64,000 bases of DNA from contig JAAEAF010014745.1 in NCBI GenBank assembly GCA_011037195.1, positions 94,691-158,690 on the forward strand, written 5' to 3'. Every line of letters begins with the position of its first letter. Position 1 is the first letter of the stretch. The position numbers were made by a program, and so were the translations under genes. The notes under the pieces are model-generated. The model worked only from the letters and a program-made list of their open reading frames with translations. It searched no databases and was not told the DNA's origin. Shown piece after piece: positions 16,080-63,650 of the stretch. This DNA comes from Triatoma infestans (Eukaryota; Arthropoda; Insecta; Hemiptera; Reduviidae).

Positions 16080-16119
16080 CATCGACCGGTTTCAGGCGTA
16101 CGCCCATCATCAGGATATG
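16080..16119 (-). ncRNA. Hammerhead-ribozyme-like core, box 1 intact
   Basis: On the minus strand: stem I (TATC side), CTGATGA (16107-16113), stem II (GGGCGTACGCCT), GAAA (16090-16093), self-complementary ACCGGT, then C at the expected cleavage position and GATG closing stem I. Every invariant base is present. Helix III has no loop, so activity would need dimers or be weak. This is inferred from the consensus; no cleavage is shown. Confidence 0.6.
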
Positions 16120-16360
16120 ATAACATTGATTTGCTCTGTGCAAGTCTATATTATCACAATGTTTTGACAAAAACATCTTGATGATGAGAAAATTGCGAAA
16201 AGCTGGGGAAAAAAATACTGTTTATTACAGTGGACGTTGACGGTTGGTTGATGGATTGTGTCCTAAATCATGGCAAAGAAACATTTTAGTGTTTAGATGA
16301 GTGTGTAGGCTCATTTCGCTCTATTCAAGTTCAACTTTTTTGCTCTGTTCACACTGTTTA

Positions 16361-16400
16361 ATCCCGATGATAGGCAAACGGCCTACGGAAACCGTCGATG
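16361..16400 (+). ncRNA. Hammerhead-like core, box 1 mutated
   Basis: Plus strand: ATC, CCGATGA (16364-16370), stem II TAGGC...GCCTA, GAAA (16388-16391), CCGTC and GATG. The box 1 T-to-C change at an invariant position and a lost base in helix III (ACCGT instead of ACCGGT) should abolish activity. It is the partner of the core at 16,080. Confidence 0.5.
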
Positions 16401-16734
16401 TCCTCAAAATGACGCAGGCTTACATGGAGAAAATCTTTGACGGAGGAAACATTTAACACTTTAAATGCAATTTATATACGTAGAAGTAAATTAGGCTCAC
16501 TTAGGACAATTAAGTTATCTGTAATTAAATACGCGTACTGTCTGTCTAATCAGAAAACAGATAATTATTTGGGTCATTTATAGATAGAGCTTAAAACTCA
16601 ATATTTACCTAGAAAGATAAGTTTTCTTATTGTTTATCAATTTGAAATAAAAATTTTTGTCTAACGATATTTAATACCTTTAATAAATAATAACAATTGA
16701 GCATACCACTACTAATAGATTATATGCATTTTTA

Positions 16735-18740
16735 CTTTCAGTTACTCTCAGGTAAGAGGTTCAAATTTTCGAAAATAAATTTTCACCAGAAATACATGTT
16801 TTGAGGTCTCCTGAGTTCGAAAAAAAATAATTTCAGCGATTTGTACGTGTGTGTGAACAAAATATTTCAAAAACGAAAAATTGCTGGAAGCTGAAACATG
16901 CTATCCTGTATAGGTAGGTACTACCCGATTAGGTACTACAGACATGAAGATTTCGGGCAAAATCCACGAACCGAAAGTACAACTTTACTGAATGCTTTTT
17001 TGTTTTCGCGATTTTCTTGATAAAGGCTTCAACTTTTTAAACATTTTCCCAGGAAAATTGATTTATGGGGCATGTTTAAGTAGTAGTACCAACATTAGCA
17101 TTAAATTTTCCTCTAAACTACCGCATCAATACAATGTATGGTTCCACTACCATCATAATATTATAGTAGTATTGGTATATTTGAAGAATATCGAAAAACC
17201 AGGAGTGCGACTTATAGAATAGGTTTTCTAATTTTTTGGAATTTTCTCGGAAAACGGCTGCAACGATTTCCTTAAAACTTGGATATTTTTTCCAAAAAAG
17301 TAGTTGTGCGAATTTGTGAATTTCAAATGTTTTATTTGTTTTTATGAATGTTGGCGCAGCCTTGTGGAATATAATGTAACTTTATTATTATTATTATTAT
17401 TGTTATTATTATTATTATTGTTATTATTATTATTATTAATCGGGTGCCTAATGGCGTGGACCTAAGCCTATGTGGCCTTTATCCCCCCGATACCCCCCAT
17501 GTTCCCTTAATTAATCTCCCCCGGTAGCTTACCGGTTAATCTGCAATATCCCAAGATATCCCTAAACTCCAACTCGCCCAAGCAATCCTGCGAGAGTGGT
17601 GCCCTCCCAAATACGCGAAACCTAGTTCCAGCGAAACGGGGACACTGACATAAGTAGTGGTACACCGTTTACCTAACTCCGTCATCGCAGTTCTGACAAA
17701 TGGGACTAGACGTCCTCCCTATGTTAAACAAGTGACTGGACACGCAAGTGTGTCCAGTCACTATCCCTACTAAGGTCCTCAGACCCGTCCTACTAAGGGG
17801 GACAGGAGATACTCCGAAGTTCCCTGCTTACTTGCCTTTATAAATCTTTTGGCTTGGAGGCACGCACCCCAGCGTTTCTCCAAAACTCTCATCTCCCAAA
17901 GTCTAATCTGTTTGTCGCGAAACGTCTTTGTGACGGCCAGGGCTGGTTCAGGACCACAAAATGGTTGTGATGATCCCTCCCTGGCCAACTGATCTGCCCT
18001 CTCATTGCCCTCTATTCCTGCATGTCCGGGTATCCAATAGAGGCGCACCTTACCCCTCCGAGCTAAAGCATTAAGACTTCTCCTGCATTTTTCCACTAAT
18101 TTCGAACTCCACCAAGGCTTACTCAAAGCCCTTAGTGCGGCCTGGCTATCCGAGAAAATCCGCACTTCCTTGAACTCTCCCTGCCACTCCCCCACAAGGC
18201 GGCAGCATTTAATAGGTATAGGGCTCCTGTATTTAGACCTACCATCAAGGGTGTTTCCCTTATGACCTCAGCCATCTCCGCCACGACTTCCCTGCTCCTG
18301 TGTGTGTTATATTGATACTCACTGAATATGAGGAGGCTACTTTCCTCCACTCTCCTCCTTGCCAGGCTGGCCTCGTTGTTTCTCCTACTTTCTTTTAAAG
18401 GTGATCCGGGTTAACTCGTAATAAGGTCTCCACTCCTTCTCCTCCAGAATCCGGAGTGAATGGGGATCTATAAAGAACCACATCCACATACCTTTGTCCT
18501 TCTCGAAGGAGCTGAGTACTCTCCAAAGATCTGTACGCAGACCAGGATTTTGCCCCGCCAAGCGTTCCAGAAATCTCTCCAAAGGACACCTCTAATGTAA
18601 CTTTACTTCTTCTGCTTGTTTTGTTAGGTTACTTGTGCCCCACTACAAATTTAATGTAAGAACAAATCAGTAATGTCTGAAATTTGTTATTTGTTACATA
18701 AAGCAGTGAGAAGAAGTCGTGTGAATGATTCACACCAGAT
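16735..18740 (+). repeat. Arm-family right half, centre to terminal hairpin
   Basis: Runs from a centre (TTACTCTCAGGTAAGAGG, then TTTTCACCAGAAATACATGT) through forward modules to the inverted terminal sequence at 18,700-18,740 (AAGCAGTGAGAAGAAGTCGT, then TTCACACCAGAT). A LINE at 17385-18592 interrupts it. Removing the LINE rejoins the arm across TAATGTAACTTTA. Confidence 0.6.
17385..18592 (-). pseudogene. 5'-truncated LINE with RNase H and zinc-finger C-terminus
   Basis: On the minus strand the frame ending at 17,779 reads an RNase H domain: FSDSQAALRAL (active-site Asp) and YWIPGHAGIEGNERADQLA (the His/Asp-containing motif). A stop follows, then a second segment with CQNCDD...YHYLCQCPRF, a CCHC finger usual after RNase H in R1/I/LOA-group LINEs. 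The 3' end is an (ATT)n tract at 17,384-17,437 as read on the plus strand. TAATGTAACTTTA at 17372-17384 and 18593-18605 is a 13-bp TSD. It is a dead copy. Confidence 0.85.
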
Positions 18741-19664
18741 TTTTGTTTGAAGAATATAAATAACTGTAAATATTCCAACAACGCCTACATATTAAAGTTC
18801 TATATGAATTTTATATAGTAACACTTGTTTGTATACATTACCATGTATAGGTTATCCGAGAGCATTGACATTGTTAGGTTATAATAACCTACACATAGTT
18901 AAAAAGAGAACCTACCTACACTTTCATTATTTATCTATACAGTGATTCTGCCCTTACTATAGTTGTTTAATACGTTACAATAACAAGTCACTTGTCTGTT
19001 CTAGTATCTACTTACTATATACATGTTAAAACTTGACTAATATGTTTCTGTTGACGTGGTGTGGAGTTCATTTAATTGTTGCTCCTTCAAATAACTTCAA
19101 AGTATCTTATGTAATAGTTACTAGGTTGGTATATAACCACACTTGCATTCTTTTTATTTTATATATTGGGCGTGTTACTAATCTTATATAAGGATATTTA
19201 AGTATTCTTTGTAGATAACTAAATGCTAATTATTACTGATTGTAGATCTTATTTTCAGATTATATAACTTGTCTTCACTTTAATGAAACGAGTTTGTTTA
19301 AAAAAATATATTTTTTTTATTTATTTTTGATAGGACTGGTAAATATTTAAACTATAATGCAATTTTAAGACATGTATTACAGGAATTTATGCAAAAATTC
19401 AGAATAAGATTTTTATTTCATGTTGCAATTTTGTGGATTTTTGGTATTGTAGTTATTTAAGAGGAGTTTGACCACTCTAAGAGAAAGTGAGACAGGAACA
19501 CTTTATTGTAAATAATAAATACAAAGAATGGGGCTGGTCAAGTAATTTGAGTTGCCAATTTGAGCACACAGCATACTGATCAATCCCTTAGATCATTTTT
19601 AGACAAATCAATTGTATAGTATAAAATAAAAATTTAAATCAAATCTAAAAGTAAAAAGAAAAGA
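18741..19664. other. AT-rich stretch without a recognisable gene
   Basis: No ORF with motifs, no SINE head and no clear inverted repeat was seen. CTCTAAGAGAAAGTGAGACAGG near 19,478 weakly resembles an arm terminus. Confidence 0.5.
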
Positions 19665-20676
19665 AAAGGAAGAACGGTAAGTCACCACGTCCTGGAGGAA
19701 TATGTCTGGAGCTCCTAAAATATGGCGGGGAAGGAGTCGTCGATATGCTTGTCAACTTTTTAATGAAATCCTGAAGGGAGATAATATACCCAACGAAATG
19801 TCATTGGGATATATCATTCTATTACATAAAAAAGGAGATAGACAAGTTTGTGAGAATTATAGGGGTATATGTGTAATTAACACTTTGATGAAAGCATTCG
19901 GAAGTGCCATCAAAACACTTGTAGAAAAAGAATATAAGACACAACAGTAACAATACGGGTTTACGGCAGGCCGTTCCTATATTCTCCCTGAAACAAATCC
20001 TAGAGAAATGTGATGCCAAAGATAAAGACATTGGCCTTGTCTTCATTGACTTGGAAAAGGCTTACGACAGTGTGCCCCGCACAAAGCTTTGGGAAGCACT
20101 GGAGTTTGCCTCCATTACTAAGCCAATAATAAATATCTCCAAAGAATTATCCAGAGATATAGAATATCCAGGTGAAAGTGGGAAATGCTTTATCGGAAGT
20201 ATTTTCAACAACAAAAGGCCTTCTTCAGGGTTGCTGCCTCTTCCCTACTTTATTTAAAATCTTTGTGGACGTGGTACTTAGGAAATGGTCTCGCAGGTTA
20301 ACCCGATGGGATTATAATTAAGTAATAATAACTATATTACAATCTGTTTTTAACAGATGACCAGGTTATTATCCCTGAAGACATCGAGAACACATTTATG
20401 TGTTCAAGGTTAGCCCGCGAATACAAAAATTGGAACTTGAAGATAATTACAAGAAAAGCGAGTACATGACCAAGAATACAGAGGTACCACTAGAAATCTA
20501 GGGCACTTTAATTAGATCTATTCGGGAATTTAAGTACTTGGGTTCTATCCTACAAATAGATGGAGGATCAGATAAGGAAGTGGCAAAGAGGATAGTAGAA
20601 GGGCGCAGGGCCACTGGGTTACTAAATCCGTTATTATGGAGTAGTAACATACTACCGAACGTTAAAAAATTAATTT
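19665..20676 (+). pseudogene. LINE-A reverse transcriptase, 5' part, split by a Jockey element
   Basis: Broken frames encode RT motifs: NEILKGDNIPNEMSLGYII, LLHKKGDRQVCENYRGI, IDLEKAYDSVPRTKLWEALE (the first catalytic Asp is in this motif) and, after frameshifts near 20,360, TDDQVI in place of ADDQ. It ends in FKYLGS- and LLWSSN-type sequence at 20,676. The missing C-terminal part resumes at 25,122. The copy lacks the endonuclease region and is 5'-truncated. Confidence 0.8.
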
Positions 20677-21329
20677 ACTATTCTGTAGTAGGAGTCTCGC
20701 ACGGACACTCGAGCAGTTCACATCGCTCTGTGTTTGAAAGAGAATAGTAGTTTTATATGTGGTTGAATCTTATAAAATTTGTGTACTGTGTTTAAGTTAT
20801 GTTAATTCCTAGTGCTATATGAAGATTTTTTTAACCATTTACTTATTTTCCTGGCTAATAGAAAACTATAAGAGCAACAGTTGGGTAAATAGTGCACTCT
20901 AGTGTTGAAAAACAGAAACATTAATCCCCACCCTTTACAAACCTCACATACCCACGAGTACTCACTGTTTATATTTTTAAGTTCTTTAGTTTTGTTATAT
21001 ATAGTTCTATTGTTCAACTAAATGCAAATTATAAGAAAATTCTTTCTTTGTTTTATTTTTATTTTATTGTTATTATTATTATTTAGTTTTTTGTTTTGTG
21101 TTGAGAGAGAGAGAAATACTTTGGAAATTGATTTTTTTTTTTTTGTATTATTGGCTTATTTCTTATTTTTTATTCTTTTTTCTGGTTTTAAATACAACTT
21201 TCTTTTTCTCCAATATCAATTTGTAATATATATTCAATTTTTTACTTTTATTTTAGTAAAGATAGTTACTATTAATTTTAGAGGATATTTATTAAAACAA
21301 CTTATATTACCCCTCGGCTAGCTTAAGCC

Positions 21330-22677: not shown

Positions 22678-22782
22678 AACAGCTATTATAAACTCATACT
22701 TTCAAAGATTTGAATCCCTCCTTCCTCCTCTTGTCAATCTATTAAACATGTTAATAAGCCAACTACTTCCTCGCTTCACGCC

Positions 22783-28540: not shown

Positions 28541-28554
28541 ATAGAGGATGTTCA

Positions 28555-31397: not shown

Positions 31398-31410
31398 TAA
31401 CTTGCAGAAG

Positions 31411-32117
31411 AGGTGGTAGGTCTGGAGCTGCGGTCTATTTTAAGACCGGAGATCATTTGGCAGTATCTCTTGGTGAATGGTCCACGGTCTTCCAGACTGA
31501 GTTTTATGCTATTCTTTGTTGTGTCTTGAATGAGAGGGTACTTAACACTAACTTAAATGGTGTTTGGATCTGCTCGGACAGCCAGGCTGCGCTGAAGGCG
31601 CTGAGTTCATGCGTCTTCACTTCCAGATTGGTGTTTGAATGTTCTAAAAGACTGGAAGAGCTTTCTTCTCTGAAGGGTGCCAGATAACATGTGGATTTTT
31701 GGGAATGAGGCAGGTGGATAGGATTGCCAAATTAGTCGCCTCTCTTCCTGGACATTATGGTTTAAGAAGACATCTCTACGTAATGGGGCTCATGCCGGAT
31801 CCGTTTTGTAGAGTCTGTGAGACAGAGGAGGAAACACCTATCCATCTTATGACTGATTGCCTGGGTTGTGAGGAAATTAGGTTCTTGAGGACCTTTGGTC
31901 GGAATAGGATGTCTGTGGAAGAGCTTAGGCTGTTTCCGCTTAAGGTTATTGTCTGATTTATTCGGACTGCGGTGAATCTTAGATGGATTAGATCTGGGTT
32001 TGGATTTTTGTTGTAGACCAGGTTTGTTGTTGTTTTTCTTTAGGTAGCTAATATGGGGTCCAGTGAGGCTTTGGATAGCGTATGGTTTTTCTCCCCCCAG
32101 ACAAATAATAATAATAA
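31411..32117 (+). pseudogene. 5'-truncated RNase H LINE (LINE-B), plus strand
   Basis: The frame at 31457-31687 holds part of RNase H: VFQTEFYAILCCVLNERV (catalytic Glu) and WICSDSQAALKALSS (Asp). After a deletion and frameshift near 31,687, GLRRHLYVMGLMPDPFCRVC and HLMTDCLGCEEIR give the C-C-H-C finger. The 3' tail is (AAT)n at about 32,104-32,119. TAACTTGCAGAAG (31398-31410) and TAACTTGTAGAAG (32118-32130) are a TSD with one mismatch. Confidence 0.85.
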
Positions 32118-32384: not shown

Positions 32385-32690
32385 ATTTTTCGTAATAACC
32401 TTCTATTACTTTCTCTTACTCCTAGTAAGAGAAAATATTGCGACTATATCAATTTTTTTTTAAATTGAGTTATTGCAAGAGAAACACCCTGAGTTCGAAA
32501 TAGATATTTTTGGCGAATGGTCTGTGTGTGTAAATATCTCAAATTTAAATTTGTTATATTGTTTTTTTTTTTTTTTAAGTTTTTCATGATTTTTTTGATA
32601 AATGCTCCAACGATTTTCTTAAAATTCGTGTACTCTCTACATCATAATAACATAAAATTTTTATTTTAAAAATTTTCTCGGTGTGGTAAT
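32385..32690 (+). repeat. Arm-family centre and right-arm start
   Basis: The centre reads TTACTTTCTCTTACTCCTAG then TAAGAGAAAATATTGCGAC, the most complete inverted centre after 8,770. Forward modules follow up to the tandem array. Confidence 0.55.
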
Positions 32691-33030
32691 ATTTGGGGAA
32701 TTTATCAAGGGGTTAACTATTCTTGCATCGACTGTATATCGATTATGGTTGGAGGTAGATCGATTGAGAACGAACTGTTAATTGGTATTGAAAAGGGCAC
32801 TAACATTTGGGGAATTTATCAAGGGGTTAACTATTCTTGCATCGACTGTATATCGATTATGGTTGGAGGTAGATCGATTGAGAACGAACTGTTAATTGGT
32901 ATTGAAAAGGGCACTAACATTAGGGGAATATATCAAGGGGTTACTTTTCTTGCATCGACTGTATATCGATTATGGTTGGAGGTAGATCGATTGAGAACGA
33001 ACTGTTAATTGGTAGTGAAAAGGGCAGCCA
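32691..33030 (+). repeat. Tandem repeat, 3 units of 114 bp
   Basis: Units start at 32,691, 32,805 and 32,919 with ATTTGGGGAATTTATCAAGG (ATTAGG in the third). The first two are identical apart from the start; the third has a few changes. 114 is a multiple of three, so one frame stays open through the array (units read IWGIYQGVNYSCIDCIS). It lies in an insertion of about 490 bp in an arm-family copy. A coding function is not supported. Confidence 0.9.
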
Positions 33031-33427: not shown

Positions 33428-34774
33428 TCAGGTGTTTCAAAAAGGACTTTACAACTTTGAACATTTATATAAATTTATTCAAAAAAGGTACAGTGCTGGT
33501 TTTAGTGTTGTTTTAAAGGGAAACACATCAAGTTTTTTTACCTTAAACTAAAGATGTTCTATGTGGCTTCCGTTGGTTATCTTGCAGACATTCGATTTCT
33601 TCCCAAACTCGCACTAGCATTGCAGGTTCAACTTGCTCAGCGGCGGCGTAGATTCTTGCTCTAAGTTCCGGTAGAGTGGCCGGCACCTTACGTACACCTT
33701 ATCCTTGATGAAGCCCCAGAGGAAGAAGTCCAGCGGTGTTAGGTCTGGGGAACGTGGGGGCCATGCAATTGGTGCAGCACGGCCAATCCATTGACCTGGA
33801 AAGTGGTTATTGAGAAAATCTCAGACGTCAGTCAGATAGTGTGGTGGTGCGCCATCTTGCATGAAGTACACATTTCGTTCTCGGTCAGCGTCATCAATCT
33901 GTGGTATCAAAAATTATTGTAACATATCCAGATACACTAACCCGTTGATGGTTGTCTCTTGGAAAAAAAAGGGGCCGTACATTTTCGTCTTGCTCAACGC
34001 AACAAACACGTTCACTTTAGGGCTATCACGAACATGTTCCAATGTTTGGTGTGGATGTTCACTGCCCCAAATCCTACAGTTATGTGTGGATGTTCACTGC
34101 CCCAACCTTGCCACTTATGTGAAAAGTTGACTCGTCAGAAAAGATTACCTTGTCCAAGAAATGTTCATCATCAGCCACTCGATTTAAGATATCCGCACAG
34201 AAGTTCCTCCGGGCAATTTTTATCAGTGTCTTTAATTGCTTGTAAAATCGACAATCTGTACGGTTTCAAATGCAAACGTTTTCTCAACACACGCCAAACC
34301 GTTGTATGTGCGACTTGAAGTTCACGAGATGCCCTCCGAGCCGATTTTCCTGGGCTACGTTCAAAACGTTGTCTCACTTGCTCAACGACTTCGTCAGATG
34401 TGCGTGGACGACCGGATGATTTCTTATGTTGTACTGAGCACCCCGTTTCTACAAAACATTTATGCCACTGATAAATTGTAGGCCTACTAGGAGGATTTTT
34501 AGCTACTTGGTACGACAATTATGCTGAACTGTTGTCGCCGACTTTGATTCTTCGAACCAAAACACACAGCTAGCACGCTCGGGTCCAGTGAAGGCAGCCA
34601 TCTTTAACGTAACTGCCGCTAGCGCTTGTTGCGGCGCGATTCTGCACTAGCGAACTACATGAGTCAAAACTTGATCTGTTTCCCTTTAAAACAACACTAA
34701 AACCAGCACTGCACCTTCTTTGAATAAATTTATATAAATGTTCAAAGTTGTAAAGTCCTTTTTGAAACACCCTA
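33428..34774 (-). mobile_element. Tc1/mariner-superfamily transposon with TIRs over 100 bp
   Basis: TIRs of about 110 bp: the left end starts TCAGGTGTTTCAAAAAGGAC and the right end is its complement. They match through AAAACAACACTAAAACCAGC. A TA precedes (33426-33427) and follows (34775-34776), as for this superfamily. Length is 1,347 bp. The transposase on the minus strand is broken. Confidence 0.85.
33660..34600 (-). pseudogene. Transposase of the Tc1/mariner element (broken)
   Basis: The probable start is the ATG at about 34,600 (MAAFTGPERASCVFWFEESK). After a frameshift near 34,505 come the helix-turn-helix regions: PTIYQWHKCFVETGCSV, then SARRASRELQVAHTTVWRVL. DEHFLDKVIFSDESTFHISG carries the first catalytic Asp. 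WPPRSPDLTPLDFFLWGFIK near 33,730 is the last catalytic region. Several frameshifts lie between. The element cannot encode a working enzyme. Confidence 0.85.
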
Positions 34775-35012: not shown

Positions 35013-36220
35013 TATTATTTGTCTGTGGGGACGGAAACCCTAGCCAAAGCCTCACTGGGCCTATACAGCTACCCCAAGAAAAACAACAACACCCCGGATC
35101 TAGAAAAAAATCCAGACCCGGATCTAATCCCTCTAAGATTCACCGCAGTCCGAATAAATCGGACAATAAACTTAAGCGGAAATAGCCTAAGCTCTTCCAC
35201 AGACATCCTATTCCGACCAAAGGTCCTGAACCTAATTTCCTCATAACCCAGGCAATTAGTCATAAGATGGATGGGTGTTTCCTCCTCTGTCTCACAGACT
35301 CTACAAAATGGATCCGGCATGAACCCCATTATGGTAGCGATGTCTCCTTAAACCACAATGTCCAGTAAGAGATCCAACCAGATGCCTGAGAGCGCTCCGT
35401 GGAAAACACAGCAACGTCTCATTAATGGCCTTGTCCGGAACCCCGATGAGCATTTTGGACTGCCGAAAACCAACTCTTGCTCACCCATAAGGATGAATGC
35501 TGTGAAGCCGTCCATGTCTGGTAGCCTGACAGACATGGGCCAGAAGACACGTCAACAGCAGGCTCGGGACCAATGAAAGGAAGAGAAGCGCCCAATTTGG
35601 CAAACCTATCACCTCCTCATTCCCAAAAATCCACATGTGACCTGGCACCCAGACTAGAAGCACATCCTTCAGAGAAGAAAGCTCTTCCAGTCTTTTAGAA
35701 CATACTAACATCAACCTGGAAGTGAAGACACATGAACTCAGCGCCTTCAGCGCAGCCTGGCTGTCCGAGCAGGTATAAACACATTTTAAGTTAGTCTTAC
35801 GTACTCTCTCATCCAAGACACAACAAAGAAAAGCAGAAACCTCAGTCTGGAAGACCGTGGTCCATTCACCAAGAAATACTGCCAAATGATCTCCAGTCTC
35901 AAAATAGACCGCAGCTCCAGACCTACCATCCATTCTGAAACCGTCCGTGTAATACCGGAATTAATTATCAGGTATCAAGTCAGACGGACCCAATCTTGAC
36001 CAATCTTTTCTATTCCAGAAAATAATTGTCTCCAACATTCTATCAGAAGGAAAACCTGTAACAGGAACCTTCAAAAGCGTCTCGCGATGAATGATAGTGT
36101 GGACCATATCGCTTACCCTGCCAAAAACCTGCCTGTTTAATTCTATACATAACAGAATTTTATACATTCTATATATAATAATGTAATGAACGTATAATTC
36201 TATACATTGTTAATCTAATA
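35013..36220 (-). pseudogene. 5'-truncated RNase H LINE (LINE-B), minus strand, 17-bp TSD
   Basis: The frame at 35481-35933 is RNase H: MDGRSGAAVYFETGDHLAVF (first Asp), TTVFQTEVSAFLCCVL (Glu), YTCSDSQAALKALSS (Asp) and VWVPGHMWIFGNEE. The last part is changed (VIGLPN instead of a typical D-x-x-A), so the fourth acid looks lost. PDPFCRVC...HLMTNCLGYEEIR at 35069-35329 is the finger with its last Cys kept. (AAT)n tail at 35,010-35,019. CATAACAGAATCTTTAT at 34996-35012 and 36221-36237 is a perfect 17-bp TSD. Confidence 0.88.
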
Positions 36221-39060: not shown

Positions 39061-39589
39061 GAAGCAGACTTTGGACGGACAGTGGAGTTCACTTTTCTGT
39101 AAGTACTTAAAAGCTACATACAGTTGGTTGGGTGAAAATCAAAAGCAACATTTTTGTCTTCTTCTTTATGCTACGTCATCGTTTTTTTTTACAGCCATTA
39201 AGCTTCTGGCAGTCCAATACATAAAATACTGTGATCTTCTTATTGAACCTGCAGCGATATTGTTGAAAGTTTAGTTACCAATTAGATGACCTATGCAGAA
39301 TCCAGGGGGGCACCACATGGAGCCAATCAACTTCACCACCCCCCCAAACTTGGAAGCAATTATGGCCAACACAATCTTTTATTGAGAACCCAGCATTCTA
39401 GGGACTGAACTATATATTCAACATTATTTATTTATATTATTTACTGGAAGAGTTTATGTTGTGAATGGTTGTGGCCTTAGATCTATGTTACTGTAGGACT
39501 AAGGCTCACTAGTATGAGTAAAGAAAAACAAAGCTTTCATTGTCTTAATAAAAACTTAAAAAGCTTTTGTGAAAAGTTATTAGGAAGCA
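39061..39589. other. Stretch without a recognisable gene
   Basis: A 71-residue frame at 39059-39274 has no recognisable motif. Nothing else was seen. Confidence 0.4.
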
Positions 39590-39892
39590 CATAGAGAGTC
39601 CATCACAGGCATAATGACAGGGAAGCACAATGGAGAGTCCATCGTAGACATAATTACAGGGAAGCAGAATGGAGAGTCCATCAAAGGCATAATGACAAGG
39701 AAGCATAATGGAGAGTTCATCATAGGCATAATGACAGGCAGGGAAGCACAATGGAGAGTCCATCACAGTCATAATGACAGGGAAGCTCAGTGGAGTGTCC
39801 ATCGCAGGCATTATGACAGGGAAGCTCAATGGAGAGCCCATCACAGTCATAATGACAGGGAAGCACAATGGGGAGCCCACCAAAGGCATAAT
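39590..39892. repeat. Minisatellite, about 7.5 units of 39 bp
   Basis: Units read ATAATGACAGGGAAGCACAA then TGGAGAGTCCATCACAGGC, with scattered changes and one 4-bp expansion near 39,735. 39 is a multiple of three, so frames on both strands stay open for long stretches. These frames are products of the repeat and not evidence of a gene. Confidence 0.9.
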
Positions 39893-40119
39893 GGCATAAT
39901 TTCCGGAAATTAGTTGAAACATTTTTAACAGACCATGTGTTGAGACCATTGGAAATGGAAAAGTTGTTGATATAAAAGCCAACAACTTCCATTTAGACCT
40001 TCTTTTTTTCTTGATTCTGACTATATATCGATCAACATTAATCGAAACATTATCGAGGAAAACAGACTGAGATACTAGGGCCACGACATGATAATGGCAG
40101 ATAATAGGATACAAAAGAC

Positions 40120-42249: not shown

Positions 42250-42420
42250 GAATGAGTTCGCACAGCTGGAAAGCCTCAGAAATATTTTCTACGATAGGCT
42301 GCTTAATTTTGTGATTGTTAAAACAGTGCAATAAACAGTAGATTTCTTGCACACAGTAAAATCAGTTTCTAACCCGTACATATACACTGATTTTGCTCTG
42401 TGCAAGTTAAGAAATAGTGA
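42250..42420 (+). repeat. Degenerate arm of the hammerhead element, core lost
   Basis: GCACAGCTGGAAAGCCTCAG then AAATATTTTCTACGATAGGC matches the 5' flank and arm of 45,782-45,835. The ribozyme core is deleted. TGATTTTGCTCTGTGCAAG near 42,391 resembles the element interior. Confidence 0.5.
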
Positions 42421-45492: not shown

Positions 45493-45839
45493 TTAATAAT
45501 TTTTCTTGGGCATTATTAATTAGGAAAAAGTTATTTACTTATGTGATCTGCCAGTTGATGTTTAGTTGTACACTACAGAACAATATTTTTCTTAACCTCT
45601 CATATCGTTCTTTTAAATCTCTCAAAGCTTCCTGCTTCTTTTTCTTGTTTATGCGTGACTCATTCTTTGTCAAAGATATTCAGCAAGCTGCAGAAGATAC
45701 TAACATGGAGAAACTTGAGCAATCTCATGCGATAGTTAATTGAGTCTGGGGACTCAGGCTTTTGTTGTGGTGGTTGGTTCCGCAGAGCTGGAAAGCATCA
45801 GAGACATTTTCCGTGGTAGCCTGCTTCATTTTGTGGTCA

Positions 45840-45876
45840 TCGACCGGTTTCGGGCGTTCGCCATCTTCAGGATGCG
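45840..45876 (-). ncRNA. Hammerhead-like core in the left arm
   Basis: Minus strand: CATC, CTGAAGA (45864-45870), stem II with GGCG...CGCCC, GAAA, ACCGGT, C, GATG. It differs from its partner by one missing C in stem II, which weakens that helix. Box 1 position 7 is A instead of U, a position known to vary. Confidence 0.6.
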
Positions 45877-45980
45877 TTTTTCAGACAGTGTGCCAACACA
45901 GACTCGTACAGAGACTTAGTTTCACTGTTATGTGAAACAAGTCTCTGTACGAGTCTGTGCTGGCACACTGTCTGAAAAAC

Positions 45981-46020
45981 GCATCCTGAAGATGGGCGAA
46001 CGCCCGAAACCGGTCGATGA
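45981..46020 (+). ncRNA. Hammerhead-like core in the right arm
   Basis: Plus strand: GCATC, CTGAAGA (45986-45992), stem II GGGC-GAAC-GCCC (perfect), GAAA (46006-46009), self-complementary ACCGGT, C at 46,015, then GATG pairing with CATC for stem I. All invariant core positions are kept. Confidence 0.65.
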
Positions 46021-46072
46021 CCACAAAATGAAGCAGGCTACCACGGAAAATGTCTCTGATACTCAGGCTTTT

Positions 46073-48499: not shown

Positions 48500-48545
48500 A
48501 TTTTGCTCTGACGATGGATGAAAGTCCCGAAACCGGTCAGGAAGA
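48500..48545 (+). ncRNA. Isolated hammerhead-like core, third sequence type
   Basis: Plus strand: CTGACGA (48508-48514), stem II TGG...CCC with a longer loop, GAAA (48529-48532), ACCGGT, C, AGG. Box 1 again differs only at position 7. Stem I is weak. No mirror arm was found nearby, so this belongs to a solo terminal repeat or another family. Confidence 0.5.
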
Positions 48546-48899: not shown

Positions 48900-49260
48900 C
48901 GTCTGAACAGAACACGGTTGCCTCTACTGTTGGCAGAAGTGGAAGACTTAAACTGGAAGGACAGATTTGGAGACCTCCTCACCCACCAGCCAATCGTACG
49001 CATGGAAAGGACAATTAGCCCCATCCAATAGCTACAGCCACTAGCAACAAGGAGGGTGAATTAGTCCCTGCCTATTTCCTGTTATTTTTTTTAACCATCC
49101 TGTGTTTTTTATCATTGTTGAGCTAGCTTACAGACACTTACCGGAAGAAACCTATTGCAATATGGGCGAAACGTCGGTTTTATGAAACCACCGATGAGGT
49201 CACCGATCTGAAAAACTAAGTGCTTGCCAACTTTACTACTAGAACTGAAGAAACCATAAA
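48900..49260 (+). repeat. Possible 3' end of a hammerhead-bearing retroelement
   Basis: An open frame (TRLPLLLAEVEDLNWKDRF, then GDLLTHQPIVRMERT) stops at about 49,028. About 110 bases later is a decayed hammerhead core: CGGAAGA, stem II CCTATT...ATGGG, GAAA (49168-49171), ACGT, C. An ORF end followed by this core fits the layout of Penelope-like elements. The frame has no motif I can name. Confidence 0.35.
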
Positions 49261-54375: not shown

Positions 54376-54500
54376 ATTCACCAGAGACATTTTCCTTGAT
54401 AGCCTGCTTCTTTTTAACCGGGTTCGAGCGTTCACCATCATCAGGATATTTTTTTGTCAAACAGTGTAATAACAGACTTGCACAGAGAAAGTACAGTTGA
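54376..54500 (-). ncRNA. Single hammerhead-element arm, box 2 mutated
   Basis: CAGAGACATTTTCCTTGATA and GCCTGCTTCTTTTTAACCGG match the arm at 45.8 kb. On the minus strand box 1 is CTGATGA (54438-54444, intact) but GAAA has become GAAC and helix III reads CCCGGTT. It is likely inactive. No mirror arm is nearby. Confidence 0.55.
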
Positions 54501-56957: not shown

Positions 56958-57076
56958 GCATGATGAATATTCATTTGTTTCTGCAATCGCAATAAATTGC
57001 TTCTTAACTAATATGAATGTAAAAAAAAAAAAAAAAAAAAAAAATATGGAAATTTGCAAATTATAATAATTTATTC

Positions 57077-57262: not shown

Positions 57263-57324
57263 ATAATAAAAAAAAAATAATATATCATTATTATTTTATT
57301 TCCAATTAAAAATTAAAATAATAA

Positions 57325-57709
57325 TTTAACGCAGCCAGTGGTGCCATCTAGGAGAGGGAGTAGGAACCTCAAGTTCTCTAGTGGCCGCTAGGAAGCGCTG
57401 GCGACGCGCTCTAGTTCTCTCTGGAAGGATTGAGAAGATTCTCCACCGGTATAAATAGTGGGGCCGCAGAGAGTTGGGAGAATTTTCCAGTTACAAACGA
57501 AGTGTACGTTTGTGGAAAGTGTATAAAAAGTGAACAAAGTGAGTTTTGTGGGTTAAGCTGTGAAGTAATTATTATTGTGTTGTTTTTTTTGTAATTTATT
57601 GTGTATAACAATAAATTGGTGTTTTCTTTATTGAAGTTTAGAGTATCCTATCTATACGAACCCACTTAAAACTAGTTGCAGTAGCTAGTTTACAAGGAGA
57701 AACGTTACA
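57325..57709 (+). mobile_element. Solo LTR family A, copy 3
   Basis: 385 bp with the same CCGGTATAAATAG TATA box (about 57,447) and AACAATAAATTGG polyadenylation signal. It starts TTTAACGCAGCC (G-to-T at the TG) and ends AAACGTTACA. Flanking ATAA and AAAA differ at one base, a possibly decayed 4-bp TSD. Confidence 0.78.
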
Positions 57710-58638
57710 AAAATAATAATAATTTATAACAATAAATAACAAATAATACTTAATAATTTTTTTTCCTATAAGTATAATTTTAAATAAAAAAGGACTATTT
57801 TGTAATAAATATTTAACTATTTAATCAATAAATAAATACCTTTATATATTCGAAAATTGGCTTCAGTTTATATAAATAACATGAATTCTTAGTAGACGTC
57901 AAAAAATTTTTTAGTTCAAGACAAATACTCTCTTCTCCCTATCTCTTTCTATCTGTTCTCTTTGATATAATCTCAATTGCGTTGTTGGTCGTGATGGGAT
58001 TTGTTTTGTAATAAGTTTTTGTTTTCGCGCATTGCTGATAGATGCCGGGCTAGTAGAGTTGAAAAATATTACTTTAGGTCACTTCTGAGAAAAAGTAATG
58101 GCAGTTTTCACTATTTCTCAATTGTGATTAAAAGTATAATTTTTCTCACTATTTTTAATTTTCATAATTATCACATTATTACACGATTGCTGAAAAAAGT
58201 AGTTTTTTAAAAAGTAGTCTGTGTGTTTGTAGGTATCTGTGTATTCAAACTTGACATACGAGAGATTCACAATAATTTTTTTTTTTTTTGTAATTTTTCT
58301 CAAAATGTTTACAATACTGCATTTTTTTTTATCCATGTCCTCCATCCAATGAGCTGTTTTATTTTATAATATTAAATAAAGATTTTTGTCAATATTCTAC
58401 AATTACTAACCGCACACAATTTGTTGGCATATACCCATAAGAAACAGAATTAATTTGACAAAATATCCTATTTGTAAAGCTAGAGCATTTATAATAGCTT
58501 AATATGTACTGTGTTATCTAAATATCAACTTCCTACATAAAACTGCACACTTTTCTGCTCGTCAATAAATATTATAACATAGTAATGTAATTTTTACAAA
58601 TAATGTGCTAATTTGTTTAATTATGATATATCAATAAC
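57710..58638. other. AT-rich stretch without genes
   Basis: A short segment near 58,200-58,330 (AAAGTAGTCTGTGTGTTTGT; TTTTTCTCAAAATG) may be a very decayed arm-family piece. Confidence 0.4.
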
Positions 58639-58802
58639 TGAAGTCATTGGCAGCCAGAGCCACTCTCAATACACTTCCGGCCTCCGGGCAGTTTTCATTC
58701 TTTACAAGCTGCAGAGGCTCCCAGAGCAGAAAGTATAAGGGTAGCACAGAACTTCAGTGCTCCAAGTCCAGTATCTAGTTAATATACCACTGGAGCTAAT
58801 CT
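58639..58802 (-). repeat. SINE1 degenerate copy
   Basis: GGCAGCCAGAGCCACTCTCA, TTCCGGCCTCCGGGCAG and GAGGCTCCCAGAGCAGAAAG match the complement of the SINE1 body with many changes. The B-box is not recognisable. Confidence 0.6.
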
Positions 58803-58984
58803 ATAGAAATTTACTAATCCAAAAGAAAAAAATGTGGTGTAGATTGATACAAGATATTTAGATATTTAGTTATATATCACGCAAAAAAAGAAAAATCGTA
58901 GAAGTGGTTACAGGTAAAGACTAAATAGAAAAGTTGATAGATGTTGATCTTAATCTTTAAGTCGGCATCACACATTTTCCTTTT

Positions 58985-59115
58985 TCGTGTTATTTTTTTT
59001 TTTTTTTACGTCGCGCGGCCAAGAATTAAATAGGCTTTGCTGGCGTCTGATGTTGTTCGTTTAGTTGGATATCTAGGGAGCATGTGAGAACAATCACAGA
59101 GGCGAACAACTGCAC
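58985..59115 (+). repeat. LTR-promoter-like fragment, pair with 42.0 kb
   Basis: CGTCGCGCGGCCAAGAATTA and GGCTTTGCTGGCGTCTGATG, then TTGTTCGTTTAGTT and GTGAGAACAA. It matches 42,040-42,115. The TATA position is AAATAG here. Confidence 0.4.
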
Positions 59116-60378
59116 ACCTCTCCCCTTTTTTGTGCAATTGAATGAACTTATTCACCTGATTTTTGAAAATACGTCATCAAAATATTTCAGAAAATATACA
59201 AATTTTGCAATCACCACAAATATTCGACGCAAATCAGTATTTTTTTTTTTTTAACCTCTATTAAAAAGAAAACTTCATTAACATTTAGATTATATATTGC
59301 GGTTTCAGTAAACCTTGAAAAGGTAATTAATACCTATAATTCTTTCGCAATATCTAGTGTAGGCGTTATATTTAAAAAAAAAAAACAAATTAAATTACTT
59401 GATATGAAATTATTTGCAAAAATAAAGATAATTTTCATAATATATATTTTCTAGAGCACCGTATCAGATTTCTTTGAAAAATATTATTTTTATATTATTA
59501 AATTACCTTTAAGTTTTAATCTCTGCTATAATTTCATTTTACAAAACAATTATATAATAAAATAAAAATTAAAAAATAATAATCATCAGTATAAGGTTGT
59601 GAAATATATTCTGGTTTACAAGCAATTAATTTCTAAATACATATGAATCAATTTTTTTTTTTATTCATCAAACTTTTATGAAAAAAATAAATTTTATAAC
59701 TGTTGTAATGGAATCAGTCAACAACAAATTCGTCACACAAAAGCAGGAATCAATAGTTTCATTAGCAACTGTATCACGGCGCTACCATAGAGCCACTAAG
59801 TGTACGTTAACTACGCATTATACTCTCTGCCACGCCCACAAAATGTACTGGCGAAAAGGTGTCAACTTCAACAGCCTAGTCTCTCATCTAAAAGCCATCT
59901 TTATCGGCACGAGGAATTAAATAAAAGTTGACCATTTGAGGAGGGGTTTAACAGTGGAATTACCAGATTCAATAAATCATTAAAGAGTAAACATCATTGC
60001 TACACCAACTTCAGTCTGGAAGGATTCACCAAACTTGCCCCCTAGTTCACTACCGTTAGAACAAGAGCTCCACCCTCACGACTATTCTACATTCATCACG
60101 CTATCATCAACAAATTACTTAGTTATTGTTCGGTCCCAGTATCCTCTTCTCTCCTTTAAAGTGTCGCTAGATATATAATTGTGTTTAGGTGCAAAGAATC
60201 AGTTCGTGTATTCTCAATTACATCACCACGTTCCTGCCACCATTTCACAGTAAAATATGTACAGAGTTCGAAATAGTTTTGTAAATTAAGTCCTAAAATA
60301 TAATTCGTAAATAGAAATTGGGTTGAATCAAAGGCAGGTAGCCCTTGAAAGCATGACATGCAATTCAGTATTAAGAGA
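59116..60378. other. Stretch without a recognisable gene
   Basis: The 80-residue frame at 59678-59920 has no motif I recognise. The region is AT-rich up to 59,700 and more mixed afterwards. Confidence 0.4.
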
Positions 60379-60837
60379 TAGATTGTTTTTCTCTATGTGT
60401 AAAGTTTCTATATAAATTCGGAGCAAAGTCGATGAATCCGAGAAATCAATTGTTCTTCTGCTCGCTGCTCTTTCACAACTTTATCTTTATATAAAGTATT
60501 ACAAAAAAAAAATTGTTTAATCTCTAAATAAATTGGAACATGAATTCATTCCAGGGCTCAGGCATTAATGACATAAACAGGCTTGGTAGACTTCGCTGGG
60601 CGGGCCATATGACCGCGAGAATGTCAAATAACTAAGTGCCCAGAAAGATATTGGAAGAAATTTATATCTTATAATTAAAGTTGGATAAACCAAGCTGCGA
60701 AGGGTGGATGGTGAGAATGAGTAATGCTCCTTAGGAGCATAATGAATATCCAAAACTGGAAGACTGTCGCATTAAATAGGGAAATCTGACGGAAGCGGAT
60801 CTTAGAGGCTTGGGTTCGCAGAAGAAAAACTGTAACA
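60379..60837 (+). pseudogene. LINE RT C-terminal fragment, partner of 63.1-63.6 kb
   Basis: A frame reads RLGRLRWAGHMTARMSNN, stop, VPRKILEEIYIL, typical of the C-terminal part of RTE-like LINE proteins, with stops. The whole 460-bp segment matches the complement of 63127-63571. The upstream non-coding part (TCTATATAAATTCGGAGCAA) is included in the match. Confidence 0.7.
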
Positions 60838-61068
60838 TAGGAAGGAATTAGCTCAATGATAGTGCGCATGAATTCCCATGGGGAAGTCCCATGTCCGAGT
60901 CCAGGCTACCCTTATGTTTTTTTTTTTTTAATTTTCGGAGTCTTTAAAGTTAACTTGTACGTTATTAGACAGTGCTGTCTTTAACGAGAGAATACTACAT
61001 GGAAGCCATCTTTGCACTGAGTATGCTCCGGATAGCAATGTCCGGCCATACATGTTGACGTGCCAAAA
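60838..61068 (+). repeat. SINE1 copy joined to the LINE fragment
   Basis: Head GAATTAGCTCAATGATAGTG and GTCCGAGTCCAGG, tail ATGTTGACGTGCC. The junction with the LINE fragment is the same as at 63,126, so LINE piece and SINE1 were duplicated together. Confidence 0.75.
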
Positions 61069-61899
61069 AAAAATAAAATATATATATATATTCAACGCCT
61101 AATTGTATCAGTTAAGTAATGTAATTACTCTTGTAGTATCATATAACCCTTTACATGGAGAGCTAATAACTTTACTTAAAAAATGAACAAATTATATCGA
61201 ATTTACCAATACCGCCCACCCAAGTGTTTGTTGTACTTATGTTGACGTTTCTTTTTGGAAGAAATTAAATTAAAAAAGGTCACCGACATTAGTAAATATT
61301 TTTGTTTAACTTCTGTCCAGCAGAATGTTTGTTTAGTCTGTTCAGATTTATAGTTGTAAAAAACGTTCCATTATAACAGACAAGATCCTGGAATAGTTCC
61401 AGGTTTCCTTAACGATATCTATACTATATCTACGAGTATGTTCAACCACATGCTCTCTCTCACTACAGTTCTTTGGCCACATTATAACATTTGTATTTTC
61501 CTTACTTATCTGCGTTTTTCTTCATCAAGATTAAATAATAATAATAGTAATATATGGTAATGTAAATATTATGTAAACAATAATGTATAATAATCATGAA
61601 TAGTAATATACATGTATAGTAATAGTATATAAGCATAATATATGTATATATATGTAATAATAGTAGTAAATATGTAATAGAGTAATAATAATTAATTCAA
61701 ACACATATGATAAACACAATAATATTAAAATAATAGAATGTATTTAACTGGTTCGACTGTCTCCGTAAATGTTCGGCACTCTTTCGGGATTGAAATGTCT
61801 ATAAAATAAAAGTGGCCGTTACATTACATTCAGCTTACTACCCTCCCTAAAACATATTCAATGTTAAACTGTTTAGAAGTGTTAGGCAAATAAATGATT
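61069..61899. other. AT-rich stretch without genes
   Basis: TA-rich simple sequence at 61,540-61,720. No motif-bearing frame. Confidence 0.5.
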
Positions 61900-62240
61900 A
61901 GTTGTTGCCAATGCTTAAAGAAAATCATCACTGCCATATTCGAAAAAATCGGGGAAAACCTGAAAATCCATTCAGTAAAATGATAATATCGGTTAAGAGA
62001 ATTTCATAGTAACCTTCTTGACGGGTCAATTGGATTATCAAGTTTGAACTTCCGCTAATTTTTTTTCGTTTTTCTTTTTTATTTCTGTGTTATGACTGTT
62101 TATCAACATAGAGAGAAACCATTTTCAAAGACCATTTTTTTGGAACTCAGAGATCCTTAAAACATATCCTTATGATAACCCTATTTCAAAAATTCATACG
62201 ATTTAATTTTGAAAAAACATCAAGAAAATGCAGAAAATAT
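61900..62240 (-). repeat. Arm-family left arm to centre
   Basis: AAAGAAAATCATCACTGCCA, CATTCAGTAAAATGATAATA and TTCGTTTTTCTTTT are in reverse-arm order. TTTCAAAAATTCATACGA near 62,195 approaches the centre. Confidence 0.5.
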
Positions 62241-62629
62241 GAGAGAAATAAGTTCCGATCTTTTTATTTTAGAAATATATGACTGAATTAAAGTGTTTTT
62301 TGAAGGCAATTTCATTAATTAAAGTAGTACATATATAGGTAGGTATAATGGTAATTCTGTTATGTCATATTTCTCTCAAAATGAACCATCATAAAATGTT
62401 CAGGAATAAAAAAAAGCAGCAACATAAGACGGACAGAGCATCTTAGTTGTGTCCAACACTACTAGTTAAACCCTGCCAACTATGAAAACTATAACGCATA
62501 ATATACCCACTCCATCTGCTAGGTAACTTTAAGAACTTTTGACATTCTAAAGTTAAGTTTGGTTAAGACGAGACACGGTTAAGTTTGGCATTTACTTCTT
62601 AAAATATCCTATCTTTCTTAAAGATTATA
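62241..62629. other. Stretch without a recognisable gene
   Basis: AT-rich sequence only. Confidence 0.4.
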
Positions 62630-62898
62630 CAATTTCCTCGGAGAATGTTCTATCCTGATGGAGCTTCGGCTACACCATTTAGGCAAATCTTTTCTCTCTA
62701 GGCTAGAAATAATTCAATTTTTAACTGGTCAAATATCCTGTTTACCACTTGATTCATTACCCTCGCCATCCCTGTCAAATCAGACTTGAATAGTACCGGA
62801 TTTGCCTAAATGTTTTGGTGTTCGTTACGACCGTTGTATTCAACATTGAAAATAGATGTTGAGGTTCGGTCATAAAAAAAAACTCTTTTTAAACTTTT

Positions 62899-62941
62899 AC
62901 CGACGTTTCGGCAAATTTATTTATTGCCTTCTTCAGGATAA
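62899..62941 (-). ncRNA. Hammerhead-like core, left arm of composite element
   Basis: Minus strand: TTTTTATC side, CTGAAGA (62930-62936), stem II GGCAA...TTGCC, GAAA (62906-62909), ACGT palindrome, C, GG. All invariant positions are kept, with A at the variable position 7. Confidence 0.6.
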
Positions 62942-63028
62942 AAATTGCTTGTTAGAATTTCTTAAAAACTATAGTTTAACTTGTGACATACCATCACCAT
63001 GTGTTGACTTGGTAACATCAACAAAACT

Positions 63029-63126
63029 GCTAAGAATAAAAAAAAATCTATGGTTAGCACTGGACTCGAACATAGTACCTCTGCATGGGAGTTCAAGCGC
63101 TCTATAATTGAGCTAATTCCTTCCTT
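63029..63126 (-). repeat. SINE1 fragment inside the composite element
   Basis: Complement of the head and first body part (GAGCTAATTCCTTCC; ACTGGACTCGAACATAG). The 3' half is missing. Confidence 0.75.
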
Positions 63127-63571
63127 TGTTTTAATGGGTCGTGGCCTCCAAGACCCACTTCCGTCAGTTTTCCCCATTTAATGCGACAGTCTTCCAGTTT
63201 TGGACATTCATTATGCTCCTAAGGATCCTCATTCTCGCCATCCACCCTTCGCGGGCTTGGTTTGTCCAATTCTAATTATAAGGTATAAATTCTTCCAATA
63301 TCTTTCTGGACATGGGAGTTATTTGACTTTCTCGCGGCCACAGGGGCCGCCCATCGAAGTCTATCAAGCCTGTTTATGTCAACAATGCCTGGGGTCCTAG
63401 AATAAATTTATGTTCGAATTTATCTAGAGATTAAACAATTTTTTTTGGCAATACTTTATAAAAAGATAAAGTTGTGAAAGAGCAGCGAGCAGAAGAACAA
63501 TTGATTTCTCGAATTCATCGACTTTGCTCCGAATTTATATAGAAACTTTAGACATAGAGAAAAACAATCTA
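63127..63571 (-). pseudogene. LINE RT C-terminal fragment inside the composite element
   Basis: Complement of the segment at 60379-60837: GGCGGCCCCTGTGGCCGC-type changes break the RWAGHMTARM frame. It is carried as passenger sequence between the hammerhead arms. Confidence 0.7.
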
Positions 63572-63597
63572 TCTTTTTAAAAAATTCTAACAAGAAA

Positions 63598-63650
63598 TTT
63601 TTACCCTGAAGAAGGCAATAAATAAATTTGCCGAAACGTCGGAAAAAGTT
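63598..63650 (+). ncRNA. Hammerhead-like core, right arm of composite element
   Basis: Plus strand: TTTTTACC, CTGAAGA (63606-63612), stem II AGGCAA...TTTGCC, GAAA (63633-63636), ACGT palindrome, C at 63,640, GGAAAAA. Stem I can pair CC/GG and TTTTT/AAAAA around one bulged A. Confidence 0.65.

Follow-up and report, generated by a model that had tools for sequence, protein, structure and literature searches.

Probable minimal type I hammerheads in the pseudo-LTRs of Penelope-like elements of Triatoma infestans

Of nine hammerhead-like cores listed for a 64,000-nt stretch of the Triatoma infestans genome (hereafter the window), six are minimal type I hammerhead motifs in intact form. Very probably, those with an ACCGGT helix III are minimal type I hammerheads in the pseudo-LTRs of a Penelope-like element (PLE) with a GIY-YIG domain, and those with an ACGT helix III occupy the same position in a second PLE. 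The original prediction had seen the cores as a possibly new palindromic variant spread over several mobile contexts. The situation is ordinary instead: the ACCGGT copies are ends of one Penelope-like family and the ACGT copies look like those of another, while a palindromic stem III in PLE hammerheads is already described in PMC6466107, and minimal, possibly dimeric forms in PMC7761336. One known element type explains the real motifs among the nine.

In the descriptor scan of the window, all six intact cores contained a CTGANGA box, helix II, GAA(A), a palindromic helix III and the following C (Table 1). Box 1 has the predicted form, as has helix III, a loopless ACGT or ACCGGT palindrome that could pair two RNAs. 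The remaining three listed cores (16361, 49141, and 54409) are broken, each at conserved positions. Homology to the ACCGGT family is retained by 16361 and 54409; 49141 did not match any other copy. The base of helix II shows an extra nucleotide or a mismatch in each intact core: the extra nucleotide between A9 and helix II, present in both families, is U in ACCGGT and A in ACGT copies, and copies 45842 and 48508 have a mismatch in its place. A first descriptor, with helix II flush against A9, found no match in the window. Dinucleotide shuffles (n = 200) yielded 0 strict matches and, allowing any palindromic helix III, a mean of 0.005 (maximum 1); this control is partly post hoc, because the second descriptor, on which it is based, was fitted after the copies had been seen.

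Table 1. Features of the two hammerhead-bearing families in the window (strand "." where none applies)
Coordinates	Strand	Feature	Details
12637..12703	.	Small foldback of two ACCGGT-family 3′ ends	Minus-strand part 12637-12661, plus-strand part 12666-12703; without hammerhead
16038..16116	-	PLE end, ACCGGT family	88.6% to L066 pseudo-LTR; holds intact core 16084-16113
16084-16113	-	Intact core	ACCGGT type; descriptor and R1
16130..16186	+	Partial head-to-head partner	Core broken; alignment to family and L066
16361..16440	+	Diverged PLE end (75%)	Core broken: box CCGATGA plus GGAAACCGTC
42259..42313	-	ACCGGT-family end and part of tail	Hammerhead missing
45752..45763	.	Target-site duplication, left, ACTCAGGCTTTT	12 bp; adjoins tail end
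45764..45925	-	Left arm of head-to-head PLE insertion	Pseudo-LTR piece, hammerhead, PLE frame start, tail
45842-45870	-	Intact core	ACCGGT type, C3 to C17; helix II 1 nt shorter; R1 62.4 bits
45919..45938	.	Junction palindrome GTTTCAC-tgttat-GTGAAAC	Head-to-head junction; sequence
45926..46060	+	Right arm of head-to-head insertion	Without tail; ends ...TCTCTGAT, 69 nt from ATG
45986-46015	+	Intact core	ACCGGT type, best copy; R1 74.9 bits
46061..46072	.	Target-site duplication, right, ACTCAGGCTTTT	12 bp; sequence
48508-48538	+	Intact core	Second ACCGGT subtype; genome form CTGACGATGGATGAAAATCCGAAACCGGTC; descriptor, genome pattern, R1
49141..49182	+	Degenerate ACGT-like core, doubtful member	Core broken: box CGGAAGA; R2 E 0.34
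54379..54490	-	Solo ACCGGT-family end (74%)	Core (54409) broken: GAAC instead of GAAA, T at position 17
62846..62968	-	ACGT-family unit	Core 62902-62936; 95% to 63574..63695 unit
62902-62936	-	Intact core	ACGT type; descriptor and R2
63574..63695	+	ACGT-family unit	Core 63606-63640
63606-63640	+	Intact core	ACGT type; descriptor and R2

A better control than the shuffles is given by two covariance models trained only on copies from outside the window: R1 on 30 copies, chosen with an exact pattern that itself came from the window and representing the first places listed (contigs C1–C4) rather than a random sample, and R2 on two copies. R1 recovered the four ACCGGT cores (45978+, E 4.5e-19; 45834-, E 1.9e-15; 16076-, E 1.3e-11; 48500+, E 1.2e-9) and the broken copy at 54408- (E 2e-5); the remaining 19 of its 24 rows had E values of at least 1.3, including both ACGT cores (1.5 and 2.9), and no row fell at 16361 or 49141. 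R2 recovered the two ACGT cores (62895-, E 5.6e-8; 63599+, E 1e-7) and scored 49138+ marginally, the low end of its scores being noisy because a coreless site, 40349, reaches E 0.0083. Together the models recovered the six intact cores. The proposed division into two families holds. The Rfam check proposed with the prediction was silent, with 0 matches at the gathering cut-off and no hammerhead at E ≤ 10 in the window, and 0 hammerheads in the whole assembly, although this last search was also silent in all 14 of its control genomes. This cut-off is a database criterion and does not define hammerheads, and Rfam models can miss PLE-end hammerheads of this make. The best Rfam matches were sub-threshold miRNA models (mir-3129, E 0.0014) triggered by the foldback stem at 45889-45967, and were discarded.

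A full Penelope-like element, consisting of a pseudo-LTR, a frame with reverse transcriptase (RT) and GIY-YIG, and a second pseudo-LTR, occurs elsewhere in the assembly (L066). The predicted association of hammerhead-type cores with mobile elements is correct. The exact cores of L066, at 461 and 3666, one in each pseudo-LTR, lie on one strand 3,205 nt apart; the direct pseudo-LTRs align over 475 bp with 96.2% identity, and there is also an inverted pseudo-LTR piece of 90 bp (84.4%). The open frame spans 413-2935 (841 aa whole), with 823 codons from an ATG at 467 that sits within the first hammerhead core, and YVDD is seen in it. In Pfam, RVT_1 matched the piece 1490-2332 (33.4 bits, cut-off 29.6) and GIY-YIG the piece 2480-2935, C-terminal to RT (23.6 bits, cut-off 22.6); GIY-YIG also matched locus L046 above cut-off (25.3 bits). 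These domain matches, from L046 and L066 pieces, are a few bits over cut-off; neither domain was found at E ≤ 0.1 with the whole 841-aa frame, nor with the L045 and L039 pieces. In three further loci, namely L039, L045, and L046 with its continuation L036 on the same contig, the endonuclease end leads into a related 3′ UTR, after which comes the core; the 3′ UTR of L039 is 93% like that of L045, and that of L036 74–77%. All of the 150 scored candidates (of 4,854) matched the endonuclease piece. On the evidence of the RT and GIY-YIG matches, the pseudo-LTRs and the optional tail, the ACCGGT family is best classed, from its sequence, as a PLE. Sequence searches of the PDB gave as best matches a protein that is neither RT nor GIY-YIG (E 0.007) and the Drt3a reverse transcriptase (E 0.02), both too weak to be used, and in NCBIfam nothing came near cut-off. 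The PLE endonuclease had no match in a phage collection; four IMG/VR pattern scans retrieved 0, 0, 3, and 0 stretches, the three (L001–L003) viewed as letters only.

The window copies of the ACCGGT family are short pieces that, except for 48508, align to the L066 pseudo-LTR; 48508, without a match there, is a second subtype of the same Penelope-like family. In the head-to-head insertion, the left arm matches the L066 pseudo-LTR at 97% identity as far as the tail end (L066 403-568 vs. 45925-45764), and one nucleotide is deleted from its helix II. The right arm carries the ATG of the PLE frame at 45992-45994, within its core.

It is hardly credible that a short descriptor picked up the cores by chance because the window is rich in repeats, even with Rfam silent and three of nine cores broken: the shuffles gave none, the 941-Mb source assembly contains the ACCGGT core pattern 22,479 times in exact form and the reversed pattern 0 times, and models built from outside copies recovered cores. 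Chance is refuted for six of the nine cores, and may apply to 49141. One pattern of a stepwise genome count had 12,794 matches.

The near-perfect foldback at 45764-46060, with its 12-bp target duplication, is also what MITE-like DNA transposons would leave, their terminal repeats holding hammerhead-like sequence by accident. Nevertheless, single-arm copies exist (e.g., 54379-54490), the 5′ ends are variable, the 3′ ends fall at two places, and the same sequence flanks the RT/GIY-YIG frame in L066, which contradicts this reading and makes it barely conceivable. Somewhat less remote, albeit still quite improbable, is a reading of the short units as animal retrozymes, which are non-autonomous repeats of ~170–400 nt that make circular RNA with a borrowed enzyme. 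Their unit size (~80–300 bp here) and type I layout would fit, and such repeats with type I hammerheads are described in PMC7229834, insects included; however, metazoan retrozymes appear there as short direct tandem repeats, whereas the ACCGGT window copies are solo or head-to-head, their 3′ ends fall within the PLE frame, and the genome contains a PLE that has an ORF and these same ends. The ACGT units may conceivably be retrozymes.

The ACGT family resembles the ACCGGT family in structure, and its cores most likely play the equivalent part in a second PLE. The unit at 62846..62968 continues past ...CTATTTTC into a candidate tail. No GIY-YIG was found in the 225 window ORFs of at least 60 aa, nor an ORF for the ACGT family, and the PLE pieces had no match in the window. 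Frameless end pieces are the rule, an observation that bears on the missing ACGT ORF.

The insertion ends of the ACCGGT family bear on its mode of copying. Among the 30 outside loci, the distance of the 3′ end from the ATG is ~69 nt in the 12 loci without a tail and ~102 nt in the 11 with one (7 of 30 left unclassed). Target repeats of at least 10 bp flank 14 of 23 copies, vs. 6 of 504 swapped pairs, a count that omits the 7 of 30 copies without a recognised 3′ end. Reverse transcription would start within the first codons at these two places, a start at 69 nt giving a copy without tail and one at ~102 nt a copy with tail, and would run back a variable distance, leaving many short solo or head-to-head pieces as in the window; this order of copying events is the one that we infer. 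The frame is open through codon 23 in 25 of 30 loci. In a by-eye comparison of a few copies, changes in the first codons fall at all codon positions, and we therefore make no claim of selection.

Pairing statistics from the 30 outside copies (23 distinct) support helices I and II with an open stem I, as in type I hammerheads: 90.2% of the cells are paired, a value reached by 0 of 500 shuffles and far from the maximum of slid alignments (39.7%), and both sides changed in 23 cells (shuffle mean 7.0; 0 of 500 reach 23). Pairs changed on both sides number 5 of 8, no more than shuffling can give (mean 4.2, with 5 or more in 199 of 500 shuffles), and there are 8 further pair types where shuffles average 10.3. 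The paired changes represent few events, because they mostly separate the two subtypes. The start codon is built into the hammerhead core, formed by A9, the extra U and the first G of helix II, and the predicted cut, after the C following ACCGGT, lies 24 nt into the frame. Since helix III is a loopless 3+3 palindrome, formable only between two copies, an active fold should require a pair of adjacent hammerheads, the partner being perhaps the other end of the same element, 3.2 kb away, or a second RNA. Energy folds of single cores contained stem I together with helix II only in 62902; helix II also formed in 45986, 48508, and 63606, and was absent in 45842 and 16084. Energy folding did not show helix III and no predicted dimer was the hammerhead dimer, the folds giving weak support overall.

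Cleavage has no genomic footprint among 131 aligned family pieces: of the 11 that start beyond position 695, not one starts at 718, where the cut is predicted. The commonest 5′ start, at 645-649 (37 of 131 pieces), may equally be a subfamily difference. Tentatively, and with the balance against it, the extra nucleotide and loopless helix III could define a distinct hammerhead subclass, inactive as a monomer and activated by pairing between the two ends of one PLE RNA or by the PLE protein. The predicted cut would remove the start codon from the frame and so act as a switch, a given RNA serving either as messenger or as processed template but not as both. Pointing faintly to such use, 5 of the 11 late 5′ ends start 3–7 nt past the predicted cut, and 0 of 11 at it. 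Under the favoured explanation, of known PLE-end hammerheads, more than 22,000 exact cores on truncated insertions are a natural set for asking what PLE hammerheads do in vivo, a question that can be addressed from insertion ends alone.

Small PLE-associated hammerheads acting as dimers were reportedly found by Lünse, Weinberg, and Breaker in 2017. The motifs analyzed here share with that set, compared by its description in citing papers only, the minimal core, the very short palindromic stem III, the PLE location and the proposed dimer action. Double hammerheads in PLEs are described as needing a stem III loop that is palindromic, together with tandem arrangement (PMC6466107), and PLE hammerheads are called minimal and possibly dimeric (PMC7761336); Lünse et al. 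2017 and Cervera and De la Peña 2014 are given there as sources. As PLE hammerheads acting as dimers are already in print, these are of a known kind, with this family a further member. Metazoan retrozymes likewise have type I hammerheads in short repeats, but as described they are tandem repeats without a PLE frame, most with canonical type I hammerheads (PMC7229834).

The closest parallels are in PAc, a Poseidon PLE of Anolis carolinensis (PMC11167929), with RT and then GIY-YIG in one frame, a hammerhead at the pseudo-LTR/ORF junction, the ATG at stem II, a cut 26 bp into the ORF (24 nt predicted here), and a tail between two RT start sites with an AC-rich start region. According to the same source, the anole ribozyme cleaved only with protein, and mutants still inserted. 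PAc differs in sequence and in its preferred RT start, 111–118 bp into the ORF, whereas copies here end at 69 and ~102 nt and form two subtypes whose helix III is ACCGGT. For Adineta vaga, Penelope elements such as Pen2a_Av are described in PMC3846280, whose main text does not contain the word hammerhead. They share with the present family an optional tail of ~31 bp (31 bp in Pen2a_Av), the head-to-head inverted pseudo-LTR and junction palindromes, as well as a frame of similar length (~840 aa vs. 823). The pseudo-LTR takes in the first 12 codons, or 22 with tail, in A. vaga, and 23 and 34 here; the target-site duplication is 9 bp in Pen2a_Av and 12 bp at 45752; and copy number is low in A. 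vaga, in contrast to T. infestans, where more than 22,000 end pieces carry an exact core.

Six of the nine hammerhead-like cores of the original prediction are intact according to a descriptor in which the base of helix II may hold a mismatch or a single additional nucleotide, and which gave no matches in 200 dinucleotide shuffles; the other three (copies 16361, 49141 and 54409) are broken. A stricter first descriptor retrieved no core from the window, because every copy has the extra nucleotide (after A9, as in copy 45986) or the mismatch (as in copies 45842 and 48508), and the Rfam scan proposed as a check yielded no hammerhead match in the window. A covariance model built from 30 out-of-window copies with an ACCGGT helix III recognized the four intact ACCGGT copies in the window (E from 4.5e-19 to 1.2e-9), as well as the broken copy 54409 (E 2e-5), and a model built from two out-of-window ACGT-type copies recognized the two ACGT copies in the window (E 5.6e-8 and 1e-7).

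The ACCGGT core pattern has 22,479 exact matches in the source assembly (G000; 941 Mb, 13,959 contigs, with the window at C13753:94691–158690), and the reversed pattern none. Among the matches listed, helix II occurs in two recurring forms, GGGC-GAAC-GCCC and GGAT-GAAA-ATCC, and stem I changes in step with them. For covariation, we took the first 30 places listed (contigs C1–C4; 23 distinct copies), in which the choice of copies by exact pattern left most core columns invariant from the outset. In this sample, 90.2% of the cells were paired, vs. 21.7 to 39.7% with partners slid, and 23 cells showed changes on both sides, vs. 7.0 in shuffles, with none of 500 shuffles as high in either case; the number of pairs with both-side changes (five of eight) was not beyond chance (199 of 500 shuffles attained it), and additional types of pair were rarer than in shuffles. 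This signal is chiefly a contrast between two subtypes and, therefore, reflects few independent events.

The original prediction placed the cores in several mobile contexts; instead, in the ACCGGT family they are ribozymes belonging to Penelope-like retroelements (PLEs), and this is likely also the case in the ACGT family. We picked 12 regions for cores close to one another. Among them, loci L045 and L039 contain a GIY-YIG-like frame followed by a common 3′ UTR and a core; L039:9010–9678 and L045:7701–8364 are 93% identical and both stop where the tail, an optional extension past the shorter 3′ end, finishes. A Pfam search did not recognize the broken endonuclease pieces of these two loci. In locus L046, which continues into L036 in one contig, an endonuclease end with an open frame of 145 aa exceeds the GIY-YIG cut-off and is followed by a UTR (74–77% like that of L045) and then a core. 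A genome search with this endonuclease piece retrieved 4,854 candidates; all of the 150 scored were matches, with open frames of up to 841 aa. The longest frame among these 150 is that of L066, a full PLE copy with a frame (413–2935) between two direct pseudo-LTRs (96.2% identity across 475 bp), with cores at 461 and 3666. Counted from its ATG (467), this frame is 823 codons long and starts with MGERPKPVDDHKMKQATTENVSDAFQLCGTNHHN; pieces of it matched RVT_1 and GIY-YIG, both above their cut-offs, and the whole frame retrieved neither from Pfam at E ≤ 0.1. A 90-bp piece of the pseudo-LTR is also present inverted.

Matches in the window to the pseudo-LTR of L066, a full PLE copy elsewhere in the genome
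Feature	Position	Strand	Basis
L066 pseudo-LTR match	45925–45764	−	alignment to L066 pseudo-LTR
L066 pseudo-LTR match	45927–46063	+	alignment to L066 pseudo-LTR
L066 pseudo-LTR match	16116–16038	−	alignment to L066 pseudo-LTR
L066 pseudo-LTR match	16130–16186	+	alignment to L066 pseudo-LTR
L066 pseudo-LTR match	54490–54379	−	alignment to L066 pseudo-LTR
L066 pseudo-LTR match	42313–42259	−	alignment to L066 pseudo-LTR
L066 pseudo-LTR match	16361–16440	+	alignment to L066 pseudo-LTR
L066 pseudo-LTR match	12666–12703	+	alignment to L066 pseudo-LTR
L066 pseudo-LTR match	12661–12637	−	alignment to L066 pseudo-LTR

A weak extra match at 1265–1296 was disregarded, and copy 48508, of the second ACCGGT subtype, did not align to the pseudo-LTR. 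The region 45764–46060 is a small complete insertion, with ACTCAGGCTTTT on both flanks and two arms joined head-to-head by a palindrome, the left one with a tail and the right one without. Its foldback stem (45889–45967) sets off sub-threshold miRNA models (mir-3129, E 0.0014; mir-499, E 0.035) and is a likely source of false miRNA annotation. Among the 30 genome loci, 11 have a tail, 12 lack it and seven were not classed; a single element accounts for both L015 and L016, one arm each. Target duplications, as repeats of at least 10 bp at the expected place, appeared in 14 of the 23 classed loci, vs. six of 504 swapped pairs. The 3′ ends of insertions cluster at two places and the 5′ ends are variable, the commonest start (645–649) occurring in 37 of 131 aligned pieces; none of the 11 late-starting pieces has its 5′ end at the predicted cut site, where a CpG lies. 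Certain hammerhead-less pieces start 3–7 nt beyond this site (42259–42313, 12666–12703, L005:1598–1631, L052:1684–1761 and L035:795–873, the last one sitting after the tail of another copy), and are too few to call a footprint of cleavage.

For the ACGT family, the segments 62846–62968 and 63574–63695 are 95% identical, and the same plan is found in loci L007 and L026, with degenerate copies in L040 and L045. As in the ACCGGT family, L045 contains a head-to-head pair, with degenerate cores at 310–354(−) and 809–853(+); the latter extends into a tail-like ACGGTCG, also present in window copy 62846–62968. Searching for a frame of this family, we found no GIY-YIG in the 225 window ORFs of at least 60 aa and no match of PLE pieces to the window; these ORFs gave three RT matches in all (1/80 plus 2/145). 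The ACGT unit is adjoined by inverted pieces (60373–60809 and 63144–63577; 88–96%), part of which resembles a LINE 3′ end by eye.

Other repeats in the window include a 278-nt inverted repeat (31402–31679 and 35663–35940, 91%), enclosing 4 kb with a frame (34171–34518) that by eye resembles a transposase N-terminus, and tandem arrays at 39552–39935 (unit of ~39 bp) and 32687–33027 (unit of ~114 bp). Helix-turn-helix matches also occurred among the window ORFs.

The extra A of the CChMVd plus-strand hammerhead is located after A9. The literature passages covered, which do not extend to Cervera and De la Peña (2014) or Lünse et al. (2017), contain no mention of an extra nucleotide after A9 for PLE hammerheads, and we claim no novelty for it; the extra A of CChMVd appears in a figure legend. 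The palindromic helix III, suspected to be a new variant, belongs to a previously described kind of PLE hammerhead. In the passages covered, these are minimal, in tandem and possibly cleave as dimers (PMC7761336), lack helix III and tertiary contacts (PMC6155905) or, as double hammerheads, depend both on tandem placement and on a stem III loop that is palindromic (PMC6466107); the three papers cite one or both of the above works.

Along with the observed anatomy, frame and domain matches, two 3′ ends, target duplications and paired changes between subtypes, we propose that the RNA would cleave itself at the hammerhead, behind the C next to ACCGGT or ACGT on the 3′ side, that two hammerheads would have to pair via ACCGGT or ACGT, and that copies would be made by reverse transcription initiating within the first codons, a start that was measured in PAc, the Poseidon PLE of Anolis carolinensis (PMC11167929). 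Insertions end 45 and ~78 nt beyond the predicted cut and, therefore, the template must have been uncut at that site. An uncut template agrees with PAc, whose ribozyme mutants, according to that paper, insert nonetheless.
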